Below, in pieces: positions 1,344 to 59,846 of a stretch of 64,000 bases of DNA (its first letter is position 1; every line of letters starts with the position of its first letter). The stretch covers positions 7,302,315 through 7,366,314 of the forward strand of contig NC_087382.1 of assembly GCF_963675165.1 (NCBI RefSeq), written 5' to 3'. A program made the position numbers and the translations under genes. The notes under the pieces were generated by a model that had not been told where the DNA came from, searched no databases, and saw only the letters and a program-made list of their open reading frames with translations. Source of the DNA: Halichondria panicea (lineage: Eukaryota > Porifera > Demospongiae > Suberitida > Halichondriidae).

Positions 1344-3784
1344 TGTGGGACTGCTTTGCAGCTACCAATAGCTAGCGCTAAAGTGCAGAACTAACTACTA
1401 AGTAGAGTAGCAACACTCTATGGACAAGTTTTGCTACGAACTATTCTGAAAGGCTGCAATATAGCACAAAACTAGAGGCATTCTTTTGCAAATCCACAAA
1501 TTGAAATCGAAACCTATATAAAAGCTTTTACTTGCACTTATAATCGAGTGATAATCCAGTATATGATTTGTTGTTTGTGTCTGGCATTATCTTACCTCTG
1601 TTTTGCGCAGACTTGGTTTGGGTGTGTCCTGTAGGCTTTGTGTTGGAGTTTGTAAAGCAGGCTCCTGTTGCCCCTAAGCAATAGAGTGTGTGAATCATCA
1701 AATTTGCTGTATATAATCATGCTGACAGTACAGAACATTTTGATACACTTAATCAATGTGTATAGAGGTTCAGATCGTTTACTCGTACTAAACCCCACTT
1801 AGTGTTGTGACATTATTTTTACCTTCTCCAGATCAGTGGCGTCTTTTTGAGAGAAGCCGTCGTTAATTTCCTTCTCCTAACAATAGAGTGAGTGTGCATG
1901 TTAGTCAAAGTAATGGTTGCATATGATTGAAAGGATTACTACTTAAAGTTTAGGTTCCGTTTACGTAGTACGTACGCTAAAAGTATATGTACGCTTAAGA
2001 TTTAACCGTACAGTATACAATATGTAGTTGTAATTCACATAAAATGTCGTTGCATGGATTTGTTGCCTACATGTATATACACTCAGAAACGGAGACAACT
2101 GCATGCAAACCGACAACCCCCCTCCCCCCCCAATTTCCACCGAAATATGACCTCCTGGCCAGTGTACAGAGTGAGAGTCTATTCAATCAGGAGGGACGAC
2201 TCAACATAAAAAAGGTACCATTATTATTTCTTCAGGAACCACATTTAATCCCTTGCCTTTAAATCTAGACCTATAGCCTCGTCCCCATGGCAGGCAGGTT
2301 TTATTATTAATAGAACGCCTGCGATACACTGTATCTGCATGGGTGTGTCTAGAGCGATAGTAAACTGTATTGTAAACATGCTGTAAATGCCTATTACCAA
2401 TTCCAACCACGTCCAGATACAATCTTCCCCAGGCCTATTTTTCGACCTATGGGAACTGGGGGAAACACTCCCAGCTGACTCGTATGTGCGTTCTTTACAA
2501 GAAGCTGTCTTTGAAATGCTTGCGCTTCATGTGCGCTACCTAGATAATAATTGTGACTCTACTACATGTGTCGGTGGTGGTGGGTTGGGCGTTGTATGTG
2601 CGACCCCACCTAGTGTACTTAATACGATAACGCCACGGCTAAGAGGATATAGAGGCGGTGTCATACATGTAGGTCGGTAGGGGTTGGGTACCACCATACC
2701 GCAGTTTATTAATTACTTTGCGGTAACGCCGCGGCTATATAGGCTGGGGTCATAGGTCGGTAGTTTGTGCTTTATATAGAATACATGTAGGTACCTGCAA
2801 AATTCTAAGAGTGAAACTACATGAACAAGGTAGAGATAGTTCTTGTGTCTACTAGCCTTTTTATGTAAGAAACTAGTATAGTAGTACAGGTATAGTATTA
2901 CTAACTATACCCACCTCCCCTAGACTAGGGCCTAGTATTGGCATACATCATACTGCACCTATCAATGTGATGCACCCAACTACTCCCCCCCCCCCCATTA
3001 GGGGTCGGGCTATATGACCGTACCCCAGAAAAGCTACACTCACTGGCAGAAGCGCATCCATTGTTAACTTTGCAGATCCACCCCTTTTCTATAATAATAA
3101 TTATCCTCATGCATGATTATGTCTGTAATGTATGTACATTAGGGTGGATCGCACTATCCTATAATGCCTGAGTGAAACAAACGTCTGGCACCCAGGTCCC
3201 AATACCATATAGCAGGTTATTTTTGTATGGTGGAAATTTTTGTGCAGACTCGATCAGAGTAAGTCAACGTGTTATACGGTACCTCTTAGATGTGGGTCAT
3301 TCATTTCTCACGTTTAATTCTTAAGTTTCACCCCAAAAGCATTTTTCCACTCTATGTGTAACTATACACGACAATGTATAGTGTACGTCCCAAAGTTGCT
3401 ACTTGCTTGCACCATAATATGATTGACACTTTGGTACCTGCAGGTGGTGTTGCATTGTTTACTGGCTTTCCTATACAATGTCTAATTGTTATACTTTAAG
3501 AACTCATCAATAGTTAGCAAGGAGTTGGGTTAGTAGGTCGTCCTTAGTTGTGTCACAACTAACTCGCCCATGCAGTCATCTCTGACGATGGTACCACATA
3601 CATTTGCATAGATATCAATCAGCCCCAGAATCTGTCCTGTTGGACCATAACTACATGTACACTTAGTCCATTTGCCTATTGCCATGACCACTTTCCATTA
3701 AATTACACTGGATGCAAGTAATTATTTATTAGTTCTAGAAACCGCTAATAGTGTGAGCAAAGCACATTTACTGAGTGCGCGTGC

Positions 3785-3853
3785 AGTCCACTGATGAGTC
3801 CCGGCACAATAAACATTAGGGACGAAAAGGTCTTGTATTCGACCTTCTGGGCT
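3785..3853 (+). ncRNA. Hammerhead ribozyme, type I
   Basis: All core elements are present in order. Stem I 3' strand AGTCCA (3785-3790); CTGATGA (3791-3797); stem II GTCCC (3798-3802) with GGGAC (3819-3823) and a 16-nt loop; GAAA (3824-3827); stem III AGGTC (3828-3832) with GACCT (3841-3845), 8-nt loop; A3827 pairs with T3846; cleavage-site base C3847; stem I 5' strand TGGGCT (3848-3853), six pairs with one G-T wobble. The ends lie in stem I, making it type I, the form known from animal retrozymes and satellites. Self-cleavage after 3847 is predicted. The same DNA is open in one frame, but the RNA fold explains it better. Confidence 0.85.
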
Positions 3854-4644
3854 ATACCAATGATGGATGATCGACTTGATCGATCGTCCGTTACTGTAAG
3901 TGTATGGCTTTTTGTCGCACTTTTCTGCAGCTCAAGCACACCTGTCCAGCAACATTTTCTCCATACAACGCCTTCTCATGGATCTGACCAATCAGGTTGC
4001 GTAACACCAGGTGGAGGTAGCAAGAGTATGGCCGCCCAGATTGAGAATGGCGGCGTGGCAGGATATCAATACTGGAGACTGCTGCCAGGTAACTCCACTG
4101 CAGATAGTGTGAACTGCATACTGTTACTGTTCCACCTCACTTGTATTAGAGCTTTAGCTAGCAAGCCAAGAAAACACTGGCTCTCTCCTTAGCTGTTCAT
4201 GTATTGTTTATGTGCGTGCTACGTCAGTGCTGCACGTGTTTTTTTGTTTTGGTAATTATAATGTTCTCCTGTCCTTACACAGAAAAAAGTGGTTGACTCC
4301 TTCGGAAAGTTCAGGTCAGCTTTACTACATGTGTACGTACCTGACTTAGCACCTATTGGGGTGTAAATAAGAGATTGAGTTACTATTGGGCATACAGGAC
4401 ATGTAATGGGTAAAAAAAGTACCCGTATATATACATGAACGTACTAGTGATTATCAAAGCCAAAACTTTGTTCCCCGAAGGTGTCCGTTATGTAGACCAC
4501 TCAAACTTTGTGCAATGCTGACATGTAATGTCTAAACAACCTCTGCCACCTCTCTTTTTTGAGAGGCTTCAGTAGTTACGTATCTACCTCCCTAAAATCT
4601 CTCTAAATGCTGAGAAATTATCAGTGTTTTCTTCTGGTTCACAG

Positions 4645-5526
4645 ACTGAGTTCATTGTAGACAGTGAGGAGTGTGCACAGGGCCAGAAACACGGGAGCAA
4701 GCCTGGCATCTCTCTCCAGTTTGATGGCCACTGGGACCCATCGCCAGCATCAGCTCTTACCGGACAGCTGGGAAAACGTACGTGCTTTATTTTAAAAGAA
4801 TGCCAGCCTGTTTTGAATACATTTTGTTATGGGCAGTCGAAGATAGTTGCGAATTCCTCTGTAACATTATTCTATGTACATCTAGCCCTGTATCCACTTT
4901 TTCAGTGGTGCTCCCTTTCTTGCACTGGGCGTAAGCACACAAACAGCTTATACACTACACTTATACAAGTATGTATTTCCTACTAAGTCAGTAGAGCTAC
5001 TTTTTAGCTTATTCTGTCTGATCATGTGTATCATTATTATTGTGGGGAGGGGGTATTATTGCGTATCATGTGCGTTTTCTTGAACTTTGACCTCGACTGC
5101 CAAGTACGAGTACGAGTGGCAACCCAGAGTAAGGATCTGCATTATACCCTACACCTACAAGACATGAATCAAATACGTACATGTATGTATAGCATCGTAC
5201 CAATCGGCCTGATACAAAAGAAAAAGCATGTACCATCATGACCGTCGGTTCTTGCACGTCCCTCCAAATAAGCTGAAAGTAAACTCGAAGCAGCCACCCT
5301 CCCAACCAGCTCAACAGGTGAGTATAGCGGGCTTAGAAGCAAGAAGTGTATTGCATGCAGTGTTACAATGTATAATTAGTTCCTGGTAGTGTTTTGAGTG
5401 TGTGTCAGAAAGTACTCTGATTCTCCATCTGACCGTACAGGTAGAGTTGATTGGGAGCAGTGATATGAGAATGAAGCAGCTAAGGATAATATCAAAGAAC
5501 AAGAACAGAAAGCGAATGACCTCGTG
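4645..5526 (+). CDS. Partial lysine-rich multi-exon gene, first family copy
   Basis: The function is not recognised. Three exon candidates have good splice signals: 4645-4777 (acceptor CACAG, donor C|GTACGT), a segment ending at 5317 (ACAG|GTGAGT; an ATG lies at 5228) and 5441-5526 (acceptor GTACAG, donor GTG|GTAAGT). The last two join in phase 0 and encode a basic stretch (KNKNRKRMTS). The 5230-5526 part is repeated at 10205-10516, where a 1-bp deletion and a 19-bp insertion break the frame. The link from 4777 to the next exon is not resolved, so the gene may be incomplete or decayed. Confidence 0.35.
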
Positions 5527-6007: not shown

Positions 6008-7094
6008 TTATTTACGCCGCTTCTTAGCAGCAGGTACTTGAGACGTCTCAGTGGCTGAGGCCGAGGCCTTACGGTTGGAGGTGGGGGTGCGGCAAACTGA
6101 AAGGGTTGTTGCTGGAAGGAAATACAATTGGTTTGAAGTACGCCAAGTTTTTGTTTTTGCGTTGAGCAGTTACAGAGCTGGAATACACACACACGGACAC
6201 AGTCAGCTTTATGCCGTAGTCCTCGTGCGGTCGAGACATAATTATGTCAATGTTCGTAGACACTAAAGCTACCACTCAAGTAATCTCCTATACGTACATA
6301 TATTTGTTGTACAGCACTCACCAATTGGTGGTGGTTGAGGTTGAGGGCTCTCCTCCTCAGTTGTAATCATAGTCCTCCACACTCTCTTGAGCCTCACTGG
6401 GGCCATGCAACACTGTACTGGTTTCACTCTCCTCTGAAACTAAGACAAACCATATAGTTCACCAAAAACCTACTGGAGCATAGAAGAGTTACCTTCTTGT
6501 TCATCATTGGCTGCCTCCTCCTGCCCGTTTCCTATGAGGTAGTAACAAGTGATATTGGCCAACGTCACCTGCACTCCGTCCGTCAGCTCATAATAGATGT
6601 TAGGCTTGAGGGCCACCTGGGAGGTGGGAGGGAGTGACATGCACATCACTACAATTACATCTCAGTGTAAGTTAGATTTTTGTCTTGTCGCTCAATAATC
6701 ATTTAACCAGCGGTCAAACATTAGACAATCTAACTGTCTCACATGCATGTACATGTATGTATGATTGCAATACCACCTTTCGCCTGAACGTCTTATTCCG
6801 ACTTCCAAGATCCTTTATAAAGTGTGAACCCTTCTCCACAAGTATCTGTGCATGTTTCCGGGAGAGGGACCCATTGGAGAGTGTCACATCACAATCCTCC
6901 CCACGTCCTACCAAGTTATCCCCTGTTGTACATATATGTGTGTATAGAAAATCGGGGACACACGCACACACACATGCACAGAGTATGTACAATCGACTCA
7001 CCCTCTTTGAGGAAATAGTCGAAATATACCGGGGGTGTATATTCTACGTTTTGGGAGATATTCTTGTCCTGGGAGAGCACTCGCAAAAGGCTCG
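6008..7094 (-). CDS. FHA-domain protein (MDC1/nibrin-like FHA), possibly frameshifted
   Basis: Exons 7094-7002, 6922-6777 and 6616-6493 join with matching phases into one FHA domain: GRGEDCDV (arginine of the phosphothreonine pocket), SLSRKHAQI (S-R-x-H) and DLGSRNKTF (the usual GSxNGT), then LKPNIYYEL and LANITCYYL strands. FHA domains bind phosphothreonine; this type occurs in DNA-damage mediators such as MDC1. Exon 6439-6322 runs in frame for 28 codons (acidic, ending DYDYN), then meets TGA at 6357-6359. A different frame of that exon continues into 6111-6008, which ends in the basic KKRRK before TAA. Either the protein ends early or a 1-nt frameshift separates an NLS-bearing tail. No initiator ATG was found; upstream exons are missing. 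Confidence 0.6.
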
Positions 7095-19250: not shown

Positions 19251-20895
19251 TTATTGATCTCTCTTTGATAAAACATCTTGAAGTACCAGTTTATCCAACT
19301 CACCTAAGAATGGGAATGAGTAATAAAATTATCATTTGTATAAGTGTATAATCATTTCTTACCAGTGAAGACAAGCTTTTTAAAAAAGGGCAAACAAATC
19401 TTGTAGTCCCTGTGGTCAGTGTCATCTTTAAATAACTGATAAAAGATGAGCCCAACCTGCTTCCAATCTAAATTTTCAGCAGTCCACCTGCGATCCAACG
19501 GGTAGTACATGTCATTTTCAGGATTGAAATCACTTGATATGGCTTTTGCTTTTGTGTTCGCTTTAACGCTTCTGTCTAAGTCTATTAAAACCAAAGTGGA
19601 GAAATCCGTTGCCACACAAACATTTTCTCTTCGAATGTCCAAATGGGCAATGTTTAGTTGATGAAGCTCTTCGATGATTTGCACTAAAACTTGTAAGTAC
19701 CAATACAAATTTTTTTTAATTTCGCTAGGCAGGAGCGGTGGTAAGTACAATGGGTAAGTGAAGTAGGTAAACGGGAAAACTTCATTGGAAATGGGAAACC
19801 CGATTGACTTGGATCTCAGCCCAAAACGTAACAGATGGAACAATCTCGATTCTTCCTGCTGATTCATTGGTATTTTGTGTACCAGCTGCTGAGTTGGATT
19901 CACGATGACAACACTCTGGCCAGACATCAATTGTTTTGCTCCAGGCCCAAATACCCCAGCGATGTTGCTTTGGCATACTGGGAAAGCGAAGAGGTAACAT
20001 TTTGTTTCTTCCCATCTCTTGCCCCAAAGATCTTTATTCTTTTTATAGACACGCTTGAGGTGGGCAGGAACGTCACAATGCATAATTGGCAAATGCTCCT
20101 CGTCAAATCTCATGTCATTAAATACCCATGCCACCGTGACCAAGATAACGCATTCAACGCTCTCAAACGGAAAGTAAAACCCTTGAAGGGATTCTTCTTG
20201 GATACACCGGTTTCTCAGTGATGACAGCATTTGTGCTAAGTGGATCGCTAGCTTCAGAGTAGTGTCCTTGTATGAACTGTTTGATTCGACTTCACAAATA
20301 AAAAATGTTGCTCCACTTCGATCTGCAATTGTTACGTCCGGATATCTTCGGATTGTAACTGGCATTGAGCTAGTGTCTGGCAATAGTTTCAAACCTTTGC
20401 ACACTTGAGCTTCGACTCCCAAAACTTCTGATATGTAGTCACCAACTCTAGTTTCGCTTTTAATAATCTTTCCAGAAGCAGATACCTTCAAGCCCTTATA
20501 CAAGGCATCCAAAGAGTAGAGTTTAGGGGGGGGTGTGTCACCTCTGTGAATCAACTGTTTTAATACTGACGTACTATACGGCGACTTGGATAGCGCCGAA
20601 GGGAGAATTGGTTTGCTGGCTCTTGAAGTTCTAACGTAATCAAAGTTTGAATTCCATCCCATACGCTTTCCTGGATAATCCTATGAAGGAAATAATGAGT
20701 GGTGGTTATTATAAGCACGAGAGGTTCTTAATTAGGCACTTTCGTAATACTAACACTTTGTGAGCGAAGCAACACACTGCTCTGTGCCCACTCGTTTTAT
20801 TTACCAGTACAGTACGAGCATATCTAGTGATAGAACACTAGCTAAGTTGTGTTTACCCCTACGGCGCTCAAGAGTCCAACCATCTTCTCAGCCAT
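19251..20895 (-). CDS. PD-(D/E)xK-like + atypical kinase protein, copy 1 (Crinkler-type architecture)
   Basis: Three exons: 20895-20857 (ATG, 13 codons, donor GGG|GTAAAC), 20680-19363 and 19303-19251 (TAA). Phases match; predicted length 469 aa. Residues 75-170 look like a restriction-endonuclease-like fold: YPDVTI (P127-D128), a 12-residue gap, then the strand FFICEVES (about 140-146) and a helix with Q. The usual ExK lysine is absent (EVE), so nuclease activity is doubtful. The C-terminal half resembles a protein kinase: VHKI (lysine near 282), catalytic loop HLDIRREN (H359, D361, N366) and LIDLDR in place of DFG. No glycine loop is obvious. A minisatellite follows the stop. A related gene on the same strand starts at 25588. 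The family assignment is inference. Confidence 0.7.
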
Positions 20896-23915: not shown

Positions 23916-25588
23916 TTAATAACGAGCTAACAACACTTGTTCAATTGTCTTCACTTCCGATACGCAATTCTCCAACAATTCACTCTTAAACTTCCCGGAC
24001 GTGATCAGGGACTCAACGAACTTGTTGGTTCGAATTTCATCTGGTTCCGTTATCCATTCTCGTGAGTGGTACGAGCTAGAGCTGGTGCTGGTATTCAATA
24101 TCCAGGCCGCCATCCAGCCCAGCTGGAACATGTCAGTCCTGGCACCGTCGTCTCTCCATGTAGAGTCGAGTTTGTACATGCAGCTGTCAGCTTTACTAAA
24201 TAAGCCATGTGCTAATTTGGCTGGATCTGATATCGAGGCCCTATCTACGTCGATAAAAACTGGTGTGAAATTTGAAGAAAACAAAACGTTCTCCATTCGC
24301 ACATCGTTGTGCGCAATATTCATGCCATGCAGCTCATCAAGCGCGGCCTTCAAACGAAGCATGAACTCTTTGAAGCACAATCGAGCTTCTTCCTTGCTAA
24401 AGCAATGGTACGGAAGATAGGGGTACTCGACAATCATCGGATCAAGTGAAAATGTCTGGACATTAACAGTCAGCGTAGGTGCTGTTCTACCGAATGCTTT
24501 TTGGACTATCATAATTGATTTGTTTTCACCAGGGGCATGAATTACTTTGTACACAGTATTCTTGGAGAGAAAAAGAATGTGAGAGGTTGAACACAGCTGC
24601 TTGGGTGGTTGATATTCCACAAAAGTAGCACCAGCTTCAGAAGCAACCTGAGCAGCAGCATTTTGTAACTCAATCTTGGTCAGCTTTACGAGGTGGCGCA
24701 CAATCGACGTAATTGGTAAAACTTGACTGCACTTCAGTTTAATTTGGGACTTCATGTATTCAATACCTTGTTTGATTTCTGGAAAACGTTTGAGAGTGAC
24801 CAGAAATGCCATGTCTTTGATGCTGACTTTTATTGAAGTGATGCATTGCTTGTTTGTTAAATTTGGTAAAGCAAATACTTCAACGTAATCTAGTTCTGTA
24901 TTTTCTCGTAGATTCCTGAATAGGTCCGTCGCGACTAGAACAGACTTTCGCTCTGTCCATAACATTGGAGAGGATTGAATTTGTGCGACCTGTGAGATTT
25001 CCTTAAAGTTTGATTTTTTTACTATTTGTATATCGGGTAGCTTTAAATTTGATGATACTATGTCGGCTTGATTGTCAGAATCAGGTAGTGGTAGAGCAAC
25101 GGTTTTCAGGACCATCCAGTCACGGCTCAATTGACAATCCTCTAAGATCTTTTCGAAGCACACTTTACCTACAGAGTCGCTATTTCCTTTTGACACTGAC
25201 ATGCTGTTGGCTATCATATAATCAACATGCTCAAGATTATGATCAACACTCTTCAAGTTCAGCTCTTTGAAAATGTCCCATAGTGAGTAGGTTTTTATCT
25301 CAATACCTTGTCTTTCCCCCCCCCCCAACAGGTAGTAGCCATACAAGTTCAGATCAATCGCTCTAGAAAAAGAACTTGAGGAAGATTTTTCCCCGTCTAT
25401 GGCGGTAGACGATCTGGATGGTATAGGTGCAACTGCTGATGACAAGCGAGTATTGTGGAAATGCCTATGAAAAGAAAGAGGCAAAAGAGGTGATACAGTA
25501 ATACAGAACAAAATCAAAGGGTCATATGTGAGCACACGGTCACCTAAAACGCGTAAAAAACTTACGACGGTTTCTTCGGCATCGACAT
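23916..25588 (-). CDS. PD-(D/E)xK-like + atypical kinase protein, copy 2 (Crinkler-type architecture)
   Basis: Two exons: 25588-25566 (MSMPKKPS, donor GTAAGT) and 25464-23916 (acceptor TTTCATAG, stop TAA); phases match; predicted 523 aa. A Ser-rich linker covers residues 24-45. The middle contains LPDIQI (P151-D152) and, further on, the triplet ERK (179-181), a possible PD...ExK pair. The C-terminal half is kinase-like: VYKVI (lysine 314), catalytic loop HNDVRMEN (H393, D395, N400) and FIDVDR (D413/D415) replacing DFG. The catalytic loop and post-loop strand match copy 1 (HLDIRREN, LIDLDR), so the two are distant paralogues on one strand. Crinkler-type (CR) proteins pair nuclease-like or kinase domains and are tied to conflict between genomes or hosts; assignment to them is inference. 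A fungal-style choline/aminoglycoside kinase relative is the main alternative. Confidence 0.7.
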
Positions 25589-25927
25589 AGATCTACTTGC
25601 TCCACGGAACTGGTTGAGAGAAGGAAAGGGAGATGGAGGAAAGTGAGTAGAGGCTAGACTGACTGCTCTTGACTTCTGGGCTGCACAATGGACCTGGGCT
25701 GCACAATGGAATGTATTACGTCACTTTACAACCTGAAAAACCACAAAAATGTAACCACATCCGCATTCACTGCCTACCACATCACTGCTCAATGCTCAAC
25801 CGCACATAAACTTTCATTATTTGCTGCCTCCTATCTAGACCACATGATACTTGTGTAAAGAGTGCCCAGACGGTCTCTCCCCAAGAGAGGGCGGCTGGTT
25901 CACGAGACTAGGGCACTACTACGGTGG

Positions 25928-26425
25928 CCCTGAGAGCTACTAGTAGTTGACATTCGAAGTAGGTAGTTCGGTTGGCTTAGCTATTTCGTAGTAGGTAGTT
26001 GGGTTGGCTTAGCTATTTCGTAGTAGGCAGTTGGCTTAGCTATTTCGTAGTTGATAGTTGGCTAAGCTATTTCGTAGCAGGTAGTTGGCTTAGCTATTTC
26101 GTAGTTGATAGTTGGCTAAGCTATTTCGTAGTTGATAGTTGGCAAGCTATTTCGTAGTTGATAGTTGGCTTAGCTATTTCGTAGTTGGTAGTTGGCTAAG
26201 CTATTTCGTAGTTGATAGTTGGCTTAGCTATTTCGTAGTTGATAGTTGGCTAAGCTATTTCGTAGTTGATAGTTGGCAAGCTATTTCGTAGTTGATAGTT
26301 GGCTTAGCTATTTCGTAGTTGGTAGTTGGCTAAGCTATTTCGTAGTTGATAGTTGGCTTAGCTATTTCGTAGTTGATAGTTGGCTAAGCTATTTCGTAGT
26401 TGATAGTTGGCAAGCTATTTCGTAA
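25928..26425. repeat. Minisatellite, 27-28 bp unit, about 17 copies
   Basis: The unit GCTATTTCGTAGTTGATAGT plus TGGCTTA or TGGCTAA is repeated from the edge of an inverted-repeat element (CGGTGGCCCTGAGAGCTACT at about 25922-25941). A higher-order pattern of about five units recurs (TGGCTTA, TGGCTAA and TGGCAA variants in fixed order). The same AGTTGATAGTT phrases occur at the inner inverted repeat near 12520-12610, which suggests the array grew from that element. Confidence 0.9.
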
Positions 26426-29645: not shown

Positions 29646-30930
29646 CAGTCGAGGCTTTGAAGTCCGAGCTGAATAATGAGAGGGTTTGTCTAGTCTTTCC
29701 CCCAGGACTGTGGAACCCACCACTCAGAGTGGGGGTCTGGACCACAACTCTCTGTTCTGCTGTTGAGGGATAGTGAGCGTAGAGAACAAGACGCAGGGGG
29801 TAGTGAGCAATAACTATGCACGAGTTCGAGCGTGCACCTCAGGCCAAGTGTTAGCTGTGTGTGTGTGTGTGCAGGGGGGGGGGTTGAGAGAGTGAAGCTG
29901 TGTGTTAGTGAGTGTATTGGGTATAGCATGCATGCACACAATACACACCAACAGGATCTAACTAGCCCAGAAAATAAAGTAAGCTATAACAGACGTACAC
30001 ATGAAATCCGCAAAATAGTTATTCGTATTACTAGAATAATTATTTTGCGGATGGCCTTTGCGAATAAGCCAAATCAGCAGAAAAATTGACCTACCGGAAT
30101 TGAGGTTTTGGGATTTTATTTTGGGAATTGATCAACACTCGCAAAGTTCACATATATGGCTCTAGCAATACAATATGCACAGTTATTAGTGAAAAAATAA
30201 TGTGCATCACGCCATGTGCAAATTGGTTTTATAGCAAAATCCCCTGTAGATGGCGCATGTGGCCCAGAAGGTCTAGACCTTTTCTTCCCCTATGTTTATT
30301 GTGCCGGGAGTCATCAGTGGACTGCACAACTAAATCTAGTTTGCAGTCTATCATTACGAGCACGTACGTATGATCCAGTGTGGTTCCTCTGATTAATCGT
30401 AATTATTTGAACAACGACTAACCCTTGACCTTTTGACAAGTGCCCACTGGTCTGTGTGACCACCCTCCAGGTCTCCTAAGAGTAGAGCCCCACATCCTCA
30501 GCCACATGGTACATGTACCTGAGAGGAGGGTTAGTAATGTTCAATGAACACAATAATCCAGCAATGTGACTGTCGCTCTAACACTTACTTGTCTGTTGAA
30601 ATTCTTGAGTGCAGAAACACACTGTTACATGTACGTGTAGCAGTCGTTGTAACAACAGCCAGCTTCTCTAGCGTAACTATAGTCAATATAGGGACCACTG
30701 GTGGGTGGGCGAAGTAATCCATGAATGATGAAGAGTGTAAAGAGGCATCAATCCAAGAGGTTCGTCTCTCTGGTCAGTCGTGCGTGAGACAAGAGAGGGG
30801 TGGATCTGTGTGAGGGGTGGGGTTGATGTGTACTGTATGTCATTAACACATACATTCAGTAGCTCTAAAGGAGGTCTATCACATCACATGAGTAAAGTTG
30901 GAAACCCCCCCCCCCTGCACACACACACAC
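29646..30930 (-). pseudogene. Scrambled copy of the 8-10 kb lysine-rich gene
   Basis: On the minus strand 29759-29646 is an exon homologous to 9680-9799, with the same acceptor (CAACAG), phase and donor (ACTG|GTGAGTAC); it encodes TRQTLSLFSSDFKASTG against TRHTLSLVARTIKASTG. The piece near 30850-30900 is the inverse of 8000-8040. Between them, 29860-30240 matches 8870-9290 in the direct orientation, so this copy has been rearranged internally. No complete exon chain remains. A hammerhead-like motif lies within it at 30261-30323. Confidence 0.5.
30261..30323 (-). ncRNA. Hammerhead ribozyme-like motif, diverged second copy
   Basis: Reading the minus strand: AGTCCA, CTGATGA (30317-30311), stem II CTCCC / GGGAA around a 15-nt loop that is nearly identical to the 3785 copy (GGCACAATAAACAT), GAAA, stem III AGGT-CTAG-ACCT, T, cleavage-site C (30267), then TGGGCC. 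The conserved G-C pair next to the core in stem II is a C-A mismatch here and the outer stem I pair is lost, so cleavage may be weak or absent. Flanks beyond about ten bases differ from the first copy. Confidence 0.6.
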
Positions 30931-53712: not shown

Positions 53713-55453
53713 TCATGAAGACTCATGAAGACTTCTTGGTAATGGGGGACAAACATCAGGACCCAGTTTAAAAGCTTCGTCTTTGATTTCATCGGGCAGT
53801 TCAAGTTCTCTCCTGACACCGTCTATTCCAGAAGCAATTGTAGCAGCCAGGCAAAGGTAAGGATTCGCTGAACTGCAAACCATTCGGTTCTCATAGTATG
53901 TCTTGTCGTTACCACTGTTTTTTACTCGAATGAGTGTGTTGCGATTGTCTATACCCCAGGAGATATTGTAGGGAATGTAAGCTCTCTGAGATAAAATTTT
54001 CCAGCAGTTGATGGTTGGTGCCAGGAGACAAGAGATGGCTTGTGAGTGCTTCAGATTTCCGGCAAGCTACAATAAAATGTGAGGAAATAATCTAAACAAG
54101 GTCCTAAACAAAGTCCTAAACAAGGTCGTTAATACCATATAGCGAGAAATGTTTGTGAGGTGCCAAATTTTGGTTTTTTAAGGGCAGAGCAGTGACAAAA
54201 AATTTAACTGGGAGAAACCTAGCTAGCTCCCACGCACCCGTATTTCACATGCAAAGCTCTTTGGTAGCTATAGTGTAGCGGGTTACGGTACTTGATACGC
54301 TAGATCTAGTTATATACTAGCCTCGATTCCAGGTCGAGTTTCGCTTTTGGATGATTCGCTCTAGGTTTGCAAGCTTGCTTTCTGCACTCGCTGTGGTAAA
54401 TTTTGAGCCGAATTGCTGCGATTGGATTACGGTTAGTTGAGCGAACAAATTTAACTGTTATAAAAGCGAAAACACGGCCTGGGATCGAGGCTAGTTATAT
54501 ACATGCACATGCACATGCACACAAATTATAGGTCACAAGTTCACAACTGATCCGTGGCTATTTTTTGGTCTTATAGAAATATAGATACATGCATAACAAA
54601 CCCAGTGTTGCCCCATCTTGCTAAGACTGTAAGCACCATTATGATCAGAGAAAACATTTCTCTTTCGATCCATGTCCCATATAGAATAGTTGTAATGCGC
54701 TGAGGAGCCACATGCGTCAGGGAACGGTTTTGTCATGAAGGTTATCACATGCCCTTGCTGTTGGGCAATTTCTTTGATGGCTGTTCTGAATGCAAATGCC
54801 TCGTCTGCTCCCCCAAGACCCCATGCTGGCTTGCATGATATTTCAAACTGTCCCGGACCACCTTCTGATTCGAAACTGTACATATCTCCTGGGATTTGTC
54901 TGAAGATTTGGTGAAACAATTTTGGGAATTGATTGTTTCTAATTGTAGATCTTGTACTCGTACTTGTTTCAATGGGTGTGCAATCTTTGTTTGTGATAAA
55001 GAATTCATGCTCAAAGCAGGATAAGAGTGCAAGACCCATGTCTTCAAGATTTTGCAGTTGACGTTTTGCTAGCCATCGCGGATGAGCTGACACAGGTTTG
55101 TTGTTTTGATGAAATGGTTCGACTAGAATTTGAGCAGTGGATTCAGCCCAGGGTAGCACACAGAATGTGCTCAGATCAGGGAAATTCAAAAAATCACCGT
55201 AGCTCATTTCCTCCAAAAATCCAGCTCCCTCTACATCATTTGATGCTACATCAATACTCAACATTGGGGGCATGTACTGCCCTTTGTATGCCCTATCTCT
55301 GAGATACTTTGATAGAATAGTTTTCGAGCGTGAAATACCATGCATATCAGTTTGCTCCAAACGAATAAACTCAATCAGCTCATTTTGGATGATTCGCTCT
55401 AGGTTTGCAAGCTTGCTTTCTGCACTCGCTGTGGTAAATTTTGAGCCGAATTG
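53713..55453 (-). pseudogene. Glutamine-synthetase-like (lengsin-type) gene, copy A, C-terminus lost
   Basis: Exon 55453-54602 (852 bp, phase 0 at both ends) and exon 54066-53713. Signature segments: FEHEFF (glutamate-binding E-x-E), GGPGQFEI, FMTKPFPDACGSSAHYNYS, SWGIDNRNTLIRV and SSANPYLCLAA. The metal/substrate HxH of active enzymes reads H-Y-N and the Asp before ANPYL is replaced, as in lengsin-like pseudoenzymes, so catalysis is doubtful. A 10-bp tandem duplication (TCTTCATGAG) near 53711-53730 shifts the frame and gives TGA at 53713, cutting off a tail (EFVRCFTAVKKHEIRLYEE) that is still readable in another frame. No initiator ATG exon was found. Confidence 0.8.
54318..54493. mobile_element. 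Hairpin MITE carrying 97 bp of a host exon
   Basis: The ends (TAGCCTCGATTCC... and ...CCTGGGATCGAGGCTA) and the GCTTTTATAAC-type arms belong to the 31852-31954 hairpin family. The loop is replaced by 54345-54441, which is identical over 97 bp to 55383-55479, the first exon (with its acceptor) of the glutamine-synthet­ase-like gene copy A. The element sits in an intron of that same gene. Copy B differs at several positions, so copy A is the source. Confidence 0.85.
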
Positions 55454-55559
55454 CTGCGATTGGATTACGGTTAGTTGAGTGGACTAAGCACAAATATTAT
55501 TGTAGCATTGCTTCATAAAAATTATTAAGACACAACATTAAATATTGATCTACTGTGCT

Positions 55560-55712
55560 TTGGAACAACAAATATAACACTCGCTGCATGTGGCAAATTT
55601 TGAGCCGAATTACTGCAACTATAATTATTACAGTTAGTTGGACTAAGCACAGCTGATATTACTGTAGCATTGGCATATGCTATTACAAAATACAATTGAT
55701 CTACTGTGCTTT
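55560..55712. repeat. Partial tandem duplicate of the exon start
   Basis: AAATTTTGAGCCGAATTACT through ACAGTTAGTTGGACTAAGCA and ATCTACTGTGCTTTGGAACA repeat 55430-55570 with changes. Copy B has the same arrangement at 59965-60100, so this small duplication is older than the segmental one. Confidence 0.6.
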
Positions 55713-55734
55713 GGAACAATTGATATTAGCTGAT

Positions 55735-55860
55735 AATTTCCGGGAGGGGGGAAAAATATTCGTGGTTGAACACTGGACCACAAAATAATATTTACCCACG
55801 AATGAATTAAGTGACCTTGACTGACCCCCCCCCCCCCTGAAAATTACCTGCTATACGGTA
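55735..55860. mobile_element. TACCGTATA-family MITE, deleted form
   Basis: AATATTCGTGGTTGAACACTGG and ACCCACGAATG are inverted motifs shared with 56651-56862; the right end is CTATACGGTA. The element is absent from the matching site in copy B, where a different insertion lies. Confidence 0.5.
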
Positions 55861-56464
55861 TCACCATTATATTTTTAACCACGACCTCAGTTCATGTAAG
55901 TTAGAGAAGAATACTCACTTTTCTATTCAGTAGAATCGACATGCATACCATCACAGCTGTATATATATAGCTAGATAATATATATACATAATAATTTATA
56001 CCTGAGATAGAGTGTCAGATATAATGTCAGATATCTGAAGCACACTAGATCTATAGCCAAAGACAATCTGTAGTATAAATTAGTGGCTATAGTTATCTCT
56101 AGCTAGATTTATAGTTTTATTACACCATTGATATACTAACTCTAGCAGACTAGCGAGTATATATAGCAGATTATATAGCAGCATTATAGATCTACTCATT
56201 ATAAAACATACCGAGGATGCCAGCAGCAGTCTACATGGAACTGTCATATTGAATATCCCTCAAGCAAAGTCTCGCGGGAAGCCATTGCATGCATACCTTA
56301 TCACAAGGCTTGTGTTGCCATATACCTAACCAGCAGAAATCCCATAATTCCAAAATGTGACCGCGCCTGTTGTGCCACACGCCAATGCAATCAAAATCGC
56401 TTTCTAGATAAGCTGTGAAACCGCACCCATATAAGCTTACTGTATTATGGTCTATTAATAATGT

Positions 56465-56556
56465 CTAGCCCGATCCCAGGCCGATCTGTCTCCAATTGAA
56501 CGCTAGGAGGTGACCTAGCGTTCAATTGGAGACGGATCGGCCTGGGATGGAGGCTC
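56465..56556. mobile_element. Hairpin MITE of the CTCGATCCCAGGCC family, different centre
   Basis: CGATCCCAGGCCGATCTGTC and its complement enclose CCAATTGAACGCTAGG arms and a 6-bp loop. The outer ends match the 31852-31954 element, the inner arms do not. Confidence 0.75.
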
Positions 56557-56650
56557 TAGGTTTGCACAACAGTTGTCCACAGTAATAGCAAAACCACAAT
56601 TATCCTTGGAAGCCAGCTATATGAATAGAGACTGACTTCTTGTGTGTGAG

Positions 56651-56862
56651 TACCGTATAGACCCGGGTAATTTTCGTGGGGCAAATATTCGTGGGTTTTG
56701 TGGTTGAAGGTCTGACCACGAATATTTTACCCACAAATAAAGCGACCTTGCCTACCTTTACCCGCAGTGCAAGCTCCAACCATGAAAATATTACCGACGA
56801 AATGTCTCAATATTGCTAAACCACGAATATTTTGTCCCCCGAAAATTACGCTATATACGGTA
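56651..56862. mobile_element. MITE with TACCGTATA...GGTAATTTTCG ends
   Basis: TACCGTATAGACCCGGGTAA at the left and the reverse of GAAAATTACGCTATATACGG TA at the right. ATATTCGTGG-type motifs recur in both orientations. Related elements lie at 58593-58852, 55735-55860 and 14913-14950. Confidence 0.7.
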
Positions 56863-58056
56863 GTTGTATATAATTATACTGGAACATTTCTAACGAAAAT
56901 AATATTGCTCATAATTATTATTATTATTCAAAAATATTTCCCCCCAAAAGTTTTATTGAAGTGTGTGGTTTTTGGACTTTAGTCGTTAAGTCTTCTTCAA
57001 ACCTCCCCCTCGCCGAAACCGCACTAAAAACTAGCAATTTTGAGCACTGCGGAGGATGTGCAACATCGAATCTTGCATAAGATTATAGCCAAACTTATTA
57101 GATGTTGTGACAAAATCCCAAAATATAACAATTGTTCACTGTTCTATTGAATCACCACAAATCCACCACCTATATGTTGTTATGGAAATATTTTTGGATA
57201 TGTTGTAACTTATTCATTCACCTACACAATGGTATATATCAGCACATTTTCTTTACCACTACTCGCACATTAATTTTATGGCACTGTAAATCAGTAAAGC
57301 ATGATATTCATAAGCTGCATGACTACCTTATACATGCATGTACAGAAATTAAACTGTGGTTTACTATTTTGCCTTTGCTCTGGACAACTGGTGCAAACCA
57401 TGCACTGTAGCTAGACCTGGCTGTTGTCTAGCATCTCTTAAGTCAGTGAGTCTACAGATGCATAAAAGTAACAAGGTTATTCACAAAATTGTTGTAACCT
57501 CAGACTAGGTAGTTTTCAAAGGGGGGGGCTTTAGCCCCCCAAAACCACCCCCTGGATCCGCCCCTGGTGCCATGCGCAGAGTTTCTCCGTAACATTAGAC
57601 TTGGTCGCATTATGTTTGACTCACTAGAAACTATATACCAGCTCAATCCTCCACTCTGTCTGCTGTGACTGACTGTATAACTATATAATTATGCATGTTA
57701 TTTACTGCTATACCTCTATTATTTTATCTACTTACACTGTATACATGAACACCTTTTCTGGTGTGTTCATTATATATAATTATAGCCATAGTATCATGCA
57801 CTCCTGCTAGTATTTGCATGTGGATAGCAAATTATTAATTAGGGCCGATCTATAGTTGTCCCGCTCTTCGTACATGCTTCGTACATGGATAATGATGCCT
57901 TCTATATGCACTGCACACATGATGCATACATATATAATTATAGTGTCCAACAATTATTATCCATACAATTAATGCATGTGCATTAATATTACTGTCAGTG
58001 TGCGCATATGCACCCATGCAGTTACATTGTTTTGCTACAAATGTTGAAAATAATAC

Positions 58057-59846
58057 TTTTTTCTCCCAGTTTGAATCCTCCTTGTTCTCTTCGTACAGCC
58101 GTATTTCATGTTTCTTGACTGCTGTAAAGCACCTTACAAATTCATCACCTAATGAATCAATAATGACTTTGTCTTCATTTAGAGCATCTAGAGACTCATG
58201 GAGACTTCTTGGTAATGGGGGACAAACATCAGGACCTAGTTTAAAAGCTTCGTCTTTGATTTCATTGGGCAGTTCAAGTTCTCTCATGACACCGTCTATT
58301 CCAGAAGCGATTGTAGCAGCCAGGCAAAGGTAAGGATTCGCTGAACTGCAAGCCATTCGGTTCTCATAGAATGTCTTGTCATTGCCATTGTTTTTTACTC
58401 GAATGAGTGTGTTGCGATTGTCTATACCCCAGGAGATATTGTAGGGACTGTAAGCTCTCTGAGATAAGTGTTTCCAGCAGTTGATGGTTGGTGCCAGGAG
58501 ACAAGAGATGGCTCGTGAGTGCCAGATTTCCGGCAAGCTATAAAATACAATAAAATGTGAGGAAGTAATCTAAACAAGGTCCTGAATGTACCTACCATAT
58601 AGCGGAAATTTTTGTGAGGTGCCAAATTTTGGTTTTTCGAGGGCAGAGCATTGACACAAAAATATAACTGGGAGAAACCTAGCTAGCTCCCACGCACCCG
58701 TATTTCACAAGCAAAGCTCTTGGTGGGTGTAGTTTCCTGGCATTGAAGCAAGTATTACAATGCCAGGAAACTAATAATTAATTTTTTTCGGAGGGCTCTA
58801 GAACCAAATAGTGAAAATTTGCACCTGCAAACATTTTCCGCTATATACGGTATTAATACATTTGCATCCAATGATATGCTGGATCTAGTTATATACACAT
58901 GCACATGCACAATGTAGGTCAAAAGTTCACAACTGATCCGTGGCTATTTTTTGGTCCTATAGAAATATAGATACATGCATAACGAACCCAGTGTTGCCCC
59001 ATCTTGCTAAGACTGTAAGCACCATTATGATCAGAGAAAACATTTCTCTTTCGATCCATGTCCCATATAGAATAGTTGTAATGCGCTGAGGAGCCACATG
59101 CGTCAGGGAACGGTTTTGTCATGAAGGTTATCACATGCCCTTGCTGTTGGGCAATTTCTTTGATGGCTGTTCTGAATGCAAATGCCTCGTCCGCTCCCCC
59201 AAGACCCCATGCTGGCTTGCATGATATTTCGAACTGTCCCGGACCACCTTCTGATTCGAAACTGTACATATCTCCTGGGATTTGTCTGAAGATTTGGTGA
59301 AACAATTTTGGGAATTGATTGTTTCTAATTGTAGATCTTGTACTCGTACTTGTTTCAATGGGTGTGCAATCTTTGTTTGTGATAAAGAATTCATGCTCAA
59401 AGCAGGATAAGAGTGCAAGACCCATGTCTTCAAGATTTTGCAGTTGACGTTTCGCTAGCCATCGTGGGTGAGCTGACACAGGTTTGTTGTTTTTATGAAA
59501 TGGTTTGACTAGAATTTGAGCAGTGGATTCAGCCCAGGGTAGCATACAGAATGTGCTCAGATCAGGGAAATTCAAAAAATCGCCGTAGCTCATTTCCTCC
59601 AAAAATCCAGCTCCCTCTACATCATTTGATGCGACATCAATACTCAACATTGGGGGCATGTACTGCCCTTTGTATGCCCTATCTCTGAGATACTTCGATA
59701 TAAAATAGGATAGTTTTCGAGCGTGAAATGCCATGCATATCAGTTTGCTCCAAACGAATAAACTCAATCAGCTCATTTTGGATGATTCGCTCTAGGTTTG
59801 CAAGCTTGCTTTCTGCACTCGCTGTGGCAAATTTTGAGCCGAATTT
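58057..59846 (-). pseudogene. Glutamine-synthetase-like (lengsin-type) gene, copy B, two frameshifts
   Basis: Exon 59846-58988 is 859 bp, 7 bp longer than in copy A; the extra TTTTATA-type bases near 59698-59706 shift the frame between TDMHGISRSKT and KYLRDRAYKG. Exon 58537-58057 lacks two bases near its start (AATCTGGCAC against AATCTGAAGCAC), a second shift. After that the frame is open through ANPYL and the tail lost in copy A (EIRLYEENKEDSNWEKK) to a donor at 58056. The same catalytic substitutions are seen as in copy A. Neither copy can make a full protein as read. Confidence 0.8.
58593..58852. mobile_element. TACCGTATATAGCGG-family MITE
   Basis: Left end TACCATATAGCGGAAATTTT, right end in reverse TACCGTATATAGCGGAAAAT. 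It lies in the intron of glutamine-synthetase-like copy B; a related, shorter piece sits at the same place in copy A (54133-54290). Confidence 0.65.

Follow-up and report, generated by a model that had tools for sequence, protein, structure and literature searches.

A probably active type I hammerhead ribozyme and its low-copy family in segmental duplications of the sponge Halichondria panicea

Genes and features of the locus

The stretch of DNA analysed here, 64,000 nucleotides in length and referred to below as the window, is C6:7302315-7366314 in a 131-Mb assembly of Halichondria panicea with 39 contigs. It carries two hammerhead copies, one on each strand (Table 1). The FHA-domain exon lies on the minus strand, and the strand of the ribozyme at 3785-3853 is therefore antisense to the FHA gene; this exon is 99% identical in the loci L013, L014 and L016. 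T-box and forkhead exons in neighbouring loci mark the genome as that of an animal. The open reading frames (ORFs) over the ribozyme and in the block behind it (block X) have no Pfam match, and ORF X (4587-4826) shows 22 distinct substitutions, distributed 5/9/8 by codon position, as well as gaps that are not triplets. Given the missing Pfam matches and the lack of codon periodicity in ORF X, a protein-coding reading of the ORFs over and after the ribozyme was rejected.

Behind the minus-strand copy, at a distance of 4.7 kb, lies a 557-aa kinase-like exon with relatives elsewhere in the genome, and one relative of 40% identity was located 1.1 kb from the related copy on contig C9, on the opposite strand. 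We rejected the kinase-like gene as host of these copies (group C, see below), since no relatives were among the matches listed at five of the seven group C loci. An exon-like piece at 30444-30515 (-) is common to six of the seven loci; at least 27 further matches to it lie on C1 at 11.5-14 Mb (among the best 40 of 66 candidates), a region in which no ribozyme copy was found.

Elsewhere in the window, the long ORFs 19355-20677 and 23919-25589 (-) have a divergent kinase-like C-terminal part and an unassigned N-terminal part, and the second of them has scattered relatives in the genome. A 134/27-bp tandem array of GTTGGCTAAGCTATTTCGTAGTTGATA-like units occupies 26003-26424. Pieces of a glutamine synthetase catalytic domain are present in three ORFs at 54536-59764 (-), probably a tandem gene pair because two of the three ORFs cover the same part of the domain.

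Table 1. Hammerhead copies of the window, their parts and neighbouring features (positions within the window)
Feature	Position	Strand	Description	Basis
Approximate stretch common to several other group A copies	3583-4270	+	ends vary by copy	
Group A copy of the window	3781-3856	+		
GUGC, candidate 5' strand of a loop II pseudoknot	3781-3784	+	adjoins stem I on its 5' side; complementary to GCAC 3804-3807	
Type I hammerhead ribozyme	3785-3853	+	stems of 6, 5 and 6 bp (I, II, III)	sequence
Stem I	3785-3790/3848-3853	+	AGUCCA/UGGGCU, one G-U	sequence, energy fold
Catalytic core CUGAUGA (C3-A9)	3791-3797	+	intact in 28 of 30 copies	sequence
Stem II	3798-3802/3819-3823	+	GUCCC/GGGAC	sequence, energy fold
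Loop II	3803-3818	+	16 nt	sequence, energy fold
GAAA (G12 A13 A14 A15.1)	3824-3827	+	GAA at 3824-3826; A3827 opens stem III	sequence
Closed stem III	3827-3832/3841-3846	+	AAGGUC/GACCUU, 8-nt loop	sequence, energy fold
C17	3847	+	triplet UUC; cleavage predicted after C3847	sequence; cleavage predicted
Putative mini-intron GTAAGTG...TTTTCTGCAG	3896-3930	+	35 nt; splicing predicted	
FHA-domain exon	6729-6914	-	Pfam PF00498, E 2.5e-13; same segmental duplication as some group A copies	
Degenerate group C copy	30262-30327	-	same core; first stem II pair C-A	

The hammerhead motif

At the level of sequence, 3785-3853 is a genuine type I hammerhead. The first-pass annotation had called it complete, and each element that it named, including the stems, CTGATGA, GAAA and the C at the cleavage position, is in its place; the description stands as far as the core, the three stems and the energy fold are concerned. 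The stretch contains the type I core (CUGANGA ... GAAA with H at position 17), and energy folding gives the type I architecture of three stems, of which stem I is open and stems II and III are closed. When the plus strand is folded alone, the hammerhead is both the minimum-free-energy and the centroid structure. The folding energy is mildly better than that of shuffled sequences (z -1.79 and -1.66), with 9 and 10 of 200 shuffles folding at least as well. UUC is not the commonest cleavage triplet of hammerheads, and we count it against the main reading.

A descriptor with at least 5, 4 and 3 bp in stems I, II and III matched once in the window, and 3.84 Mb of first-order Markov sequence, scanned in both directions, gave no match; loosened to 3/3/3 bp, it found two in the same random sequence. 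The loose motif CTGATGA-N(10-40)-CGAAA on its own is weaker evidence, being observed once in the window with 0.17 expected and occurring at least once in 14 of 100 shuffles. No match to the exact pattern was obtained in the viral and prokaryote collections.

The Rfam type I covariance model, proposed by the annotation as a check, returned no match at gathering, nor does any Rfam model match anywhere in the window at gathering thresholds. In E-value mode, RF00163 aligned to 3785-3838 with 16.5 bits (E 0.26), in a register that misses stem III; the gathering score is 34 bits, a curator's cut-off and not a mechanistic feature. The annotation had named the lack of both a covariance-model match and cleavage as its refutation, and the first half was found, for the public model. 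In our view the low score reflects a limitation of this model, because an equally well-formed, unrelated hammerhead on C9 also falls below the threshold (26.3 bits). A family model was built from four copies, the two of the window included, and so fits the family by construction. Its opposite-strand match at 3817-3893 (17.4 bits) was rejected as an effect of the symmetric stem III without a core, and L037, the second match of the Rfam genome search (best 73 of 13744 candidates), was rejected for having no motif in the descriptor scan; the window copy itself was not among the matches which that search listed. Could the motif be a chance resemblance and no ribozyme at all? The sub-threshold Rfam score and the shuffles that fold as well are set against the empty descriptor scan of random sequence and the conservation across copies described below, and we consider this explanation hardly credible.

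Copies in the genome

The annotation had also suggested a search for further copies, and by DNA and pattern searches at least 30 hammerhead copies were found on nine contigs (C2, C3, C4, C6, C7, C8, C9, C11 and C14). Copy counts are lower bounds because the genome search scores only the best candidates. All 30 copies were examined for their parts and can be divided into four groups, with 12 copies in group A, eight in group B, eight in group C and two in group D. All parts are kept in 18 copies, L016 with its one stem II mismatch included, while the other 12 are damaged. No compensatory change among the copies backs any stem. Judged by sequence, this is a real motif in an unusual low-copy hammerhead family.

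Group A is uniform over 72 nt in 11 of its 12 copies; the remaining one, L016, has a single change that breaks the last stem II pair. In group B, loop III is 6 nt shorter and six of the eight copies are complete; the other two, L014b and L026, have a 9-nt deletion that removes GAAA. Folded by energy alone, the B sequence with its short loop III takes another structure. The two copies of group D (L027 and L028) have C3 changed to A, and their upstream DNA differs up to about position +7. Group C consists of eight copies in seven loci, which keep the core in all eight copies and stem III in seven; L031b is truncated. In every one of them the first stem II pair is C-A in place of G-C, and the minus-strand copy of the window is predicted to be inactive or weak because of this pair.

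Groups C and B are about 94% identical over the 66-nt ribozyme, and BLAST finds almost nothing else shared around it. Matches between group C and the other groups start at or beside GTGC and end with the 3' strand of stem I, and a diverged likeness of the upstream DNA is visible by eye.

Segmental duplications as the carrier

The annotation placed the ribozyme outside any tandem array, which is correct, as none was detected at the site, and left its carrier unknown. The carrier can now be placed in part, as low-copy segmental duplications with at least 30 dispersed copies. We compared the flanks in 27 stretches around copies. Within groups, homology extends hundreds to several thousand bases past the ribozyme, with many indels and with ends that vary among copies. 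L020 and L021 are 99.96% identical over 8,984 nt in opposite orientation, both on C2 and 5 Mb apart, and L017 and L018 (C8 and C2, also in opposite orientation) are 99.4% identical over 9,727 nt. In addition, L032 and L033 on C7 are near-identical stretches of 8-10 kb, 17 kb apart and in opposite orientation. These pairs could be recent duplications or duplicates of the assembly. Five of the eight B copies have the whole upstream stretch in common, with a 250-bp dispersed repeat whose end falls about 150 nt short of the ribozyme. The flanks suggest a low-copy family spread by segmental duplication, and a transposon origin of the family is possible.

Four places contain an A and a B copy, and in each of them the two point the same way with A first; the spacing is 1.96 kb in the twins L020 and L021, 7.8 kb in L014 and about 9 kb on C7. 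L031 contains a partial 130-bp tandem duplication; elsewhere, the nearest copies are 1.96 kb apart. This direct order in L020 and the duplication in L031, together with the finding that animal type I hammerheads mostly reside in such elements (passages of PMC7229834), are what a mobile retrozyme, or another non-autonomous retrotransposon moving via RNA circles made by the hammerhead, would have in its favour. The animal settings named by the annotation were indeed retrozymes and satellite DNAs, a list that leaves out Penelope-like elements, Terminons and the conserved ribozymes that amniotes and mammals carry in introns or 3' UTRs (PMC7229834 and PMC6155905, in part). For this copy, however, no satellite or retrozyme array was found.

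In animal non-LTR retrozymes, type I hammerheads lie in 150-450-bp tandem repeats, from dimers up, and thousands of motifs occur in the genomes described (parts of PMC7229834 and PMC7761336). By comparison, the family numbers only about 30 dispersed copies in kilobase segmental duplications, and repeats of 150-450 bp, each with a hammerhead, are absent at the site and between the A and B copies of L020. A and B are also not newly made terminal repeats, because the same two distinct sequences recur in all loci holding both. No terminal direct or inverted repeats were found around L019, L030 or the window copy (L030 has a 15-nt inverted repeat inside the shared stretch and not at its ends), and visual inspection of the L019 and L030 ends showed no target-site duplication. 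A retrozyme is therefore not supported where termini were inspected, and we regard this explanation as very unlikely. The family nevertheless resembles animal non-LTR retrozymes, as far as these sources describe them, in being type I, non-coding and multi-copy with a G+C content below 45%, and in its stable stem III, which is usual there.

An empty site for L019 was also considered and rejected: no paralogue of the first 760 nt downstream was among the matches listed (best 40 of 686 candidates), and the remainder of that flank matches an unrelated palindromic repeat.

The other mobile setting is the pseudo-LTR ribozyme of a Penelope-like element. Of 19 GIY-YIG matches in the genome, eight fall in 803-aa open frames and three lie less than 30 kb from a hammerhead locus; on the other side, none is within 10 kb of any copy, and CTGANGA is missing from both strands of the one inter-ORF region examined (L038). 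Penelope-like elements and Terminons carry minimal type I hammerheads, which are described as lacking stem III or tertiary contacts (passages of PMC7229834, PMC6155905 and PMC7761336). These share with the present family the type I form and the occurrence in animal genomes, and differ from it in its 6-bp stem III (PMC6155905, PMC7761336, same passages). Such an origin of the window ribozyme is highly improbable in our judgement.

Candidate pseudoknot and mini-intron

GTGC and its partner motif in loop II are both kept in 27 of the 30 copies, the exceptions being the two core-damaged D copies, which have no GTGC, and L035 with one change in loop II. By our own arithmetic, a given 4-nt sequence will find a complement in a 16-nt loop by chance about 5% of the time, and GUGC/GCAC shows no covariation among the 30 copies; for these two reasons we treat the 4-bp pseudoknot from the stem I side to loop II as a candidate. 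Stem I-stem II pseudoknots are reported for about 40% of one large hammerhead collection and also for the C10orf118 ribozyme (PMC3088659, in the passages used here). These are base-paired tertiary contacts, whereas the present one is proposed from sequence alone.

The stable 6-bp stem III should allow cleavage as a monomer. Forms with a weak stem III need dimers for cleavage, and most invertebrate type I hammerheads have a stable one, so that the stem III found here is ordinary (sections of PMC6155905 and PMC7761336).

The putative mini-intron starts 49 nt past the cleavage-site base, inside the conserved downstream block. Its termini are present in all 22 copies of groups A, B and D, with lengths of 32-45 nt, and in none of the eight C copies.

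Conservation of the ribozyme and its flanks

For the comparison of groups A and B we aligned 10 copies of the former with 6 of the latter, omitting the twins L018, L021a, L021b and L025, every C and D copy and, in the upstream columns only, L024, whose DNA is different there. Fixed A/B differences occupy one of 66 columns in the ribozyme, located in loop III, against 20 of 68 upstream (Fisher p 5e-6); the 6-nt and 9-nt deletions in the ribozyme are absent from these counts because gaps were uncounted. Just downstream (columns 72-112) 6 of 39 columns differ (p 0.010), and in the downstream block (columns 113-180) 4 of 68 (p 0.37). The nearest 40 upstream columns, with three differences (p 0.15), are not significantly different from the ribozyme, so the upstream signal comes mostly from farther out. 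Mean pairwise differences within groups are 0.003 (A), 0.000 (B) and 0.005 (C) in the ribozyme, 0.000-0.029 in the 60-70 columns downstream, and upstream 0.02-0.04 in A and C and 0.16-0.20 in B, the latter partly from L024; the divergence of the far flanks in group C comes in part from L030, whose flanks are non-homologous. The ribozyme is among the best-conserved parts, and the downstream block is nearly as conserved.

This conservation may reflect selection for cleavage. The group C ribozyme, however, is conserved despite its broken first stem II pair, which argues against catalysis as the sole reason, and damage at this pair in members that are still alike fits passive duplication too. A passenger relic would be a ribozyme that arrived once with an extinct retroelement and has since multiplied through segmental duplication alone; such a ribozyme may have kept the ability to cut but would serve nothing, and the high identity of its copies would stem from recent duplication or gene conversion. 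Kilobases of flank are common to the copies within subfamilies, twin loci (L020/L021, for instance) reach 99.96% identity over 9 kb, 12 of the 30 copies are broken, few substitutions and frequent indels are seen outside the ribozyme too, and the downstream block is equally conserved, all as expected of a passenger. It accounts less well for the scarcity of A/B differences in the ribozyme when all 68 upstream columns together serve as the comparison, and for the ribozyme that A, B and C share amid strongly diverged surroundings. We give this explanation some weight and think it rather less than even in probability.

Proposed interpretation

We favour, with modest confidence, a genuine type I hammerhead, probably active, as a member of a low-copy family in segmental duplications; the family has at least 30 copies, of which 18 retain every part. 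Confidence in this reading is lowered by the downstream block, which within groups equals the ribozyme in conservation. The window ribozyme itself is probably active, judging from its sequence and the modelled fold. The plus strand would be transcribed within a non-coding, possibly spliced RNA, in which the ribozyme would fold as a monomer with its 6-bp stem III, loop II being held to stem I by the GUGC/GCAC pseudoknot. The transcript would then cut itself after C3847, and the 5' product would end in a 2',3'-cyclic phosphate, while the 3' product, which would hold the mini-intron, would begin with a 5'-OH. We infer transcription, splicing, pseudoknot and cleavage for the family as a whole, and, in view of other animal hammerheads, its origin from a retroelement is plausible.

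A co-opted hammerhead in a non-amniote animal is a further reading. The segmentally duplicated units would be spliced non-coding RNA genes, in whose transcripts a type I ribozyme under selection, stabilised by the pseudoknot and lying beside a very small intron, would carry out the processing, and the derived subfamily C would have kept most of the sequence and lost catalysis. We regard it as speculative and unlikely.

Comparison with known hammerheads

The nearest setting is that of the few low-copy conserved hammerheads of amniotes and mammals, as far as the sources describe these. They include the ribozymes in an intron of RECK and in a 5'-UTR intron of C10orf118 (parts of PMC3088659 and PMC6155905) and in the 3' UTR of Clec2 (PMC6155905, in part). 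Like them, the sponge copies are low in number, dispersed and well conserved. The C10 ribozyme uses a pseudoknot, which here is a candidate. The amniote ribozymes lie in introns or UTRs of known protein genes, whereas the family described here has many copies, partly broken, to which no host gene could be assigned. In the passages cited (PMC7229834, PMC3088659, PMC6155905 and PMC7761336), animal type I hammerheads are mostly explained as parts of retroelements, with a few conserved others in amniotes and mammals. Among the papers listed in searches of open-access full text, none dealt with sponge hammerheads or with a low-copy family of this kind. A small family with uneven conservation, in which broken versions stand beside intact ones in one genome, would make a host role of hammerheads testable across loci and sister species.

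Additional observations

The unrelated type I hammerhead on C9 lies at L036:1501-1558, that is, C9:2565689-2565746 (+). It has a 6-bp stem I, a GUC cleavage triplet and a long stem III, and its lowest-energy fold is the hammerhead; a genome search gave no second copy.

The three GIY-YIG matches near hammerhead loci are C4:4715732, C7:5186278 and C8:3719859, compared with about 0.2 estimated by chance. At C12:6452239-6461549 (L038), three GIY-YIG matches with 803-aa open frames are arranged in tandem at a spacing of about 4.53 kb, and a separate 227-aa ORF lies between two of the units, an arrangement that is retroelement-like.
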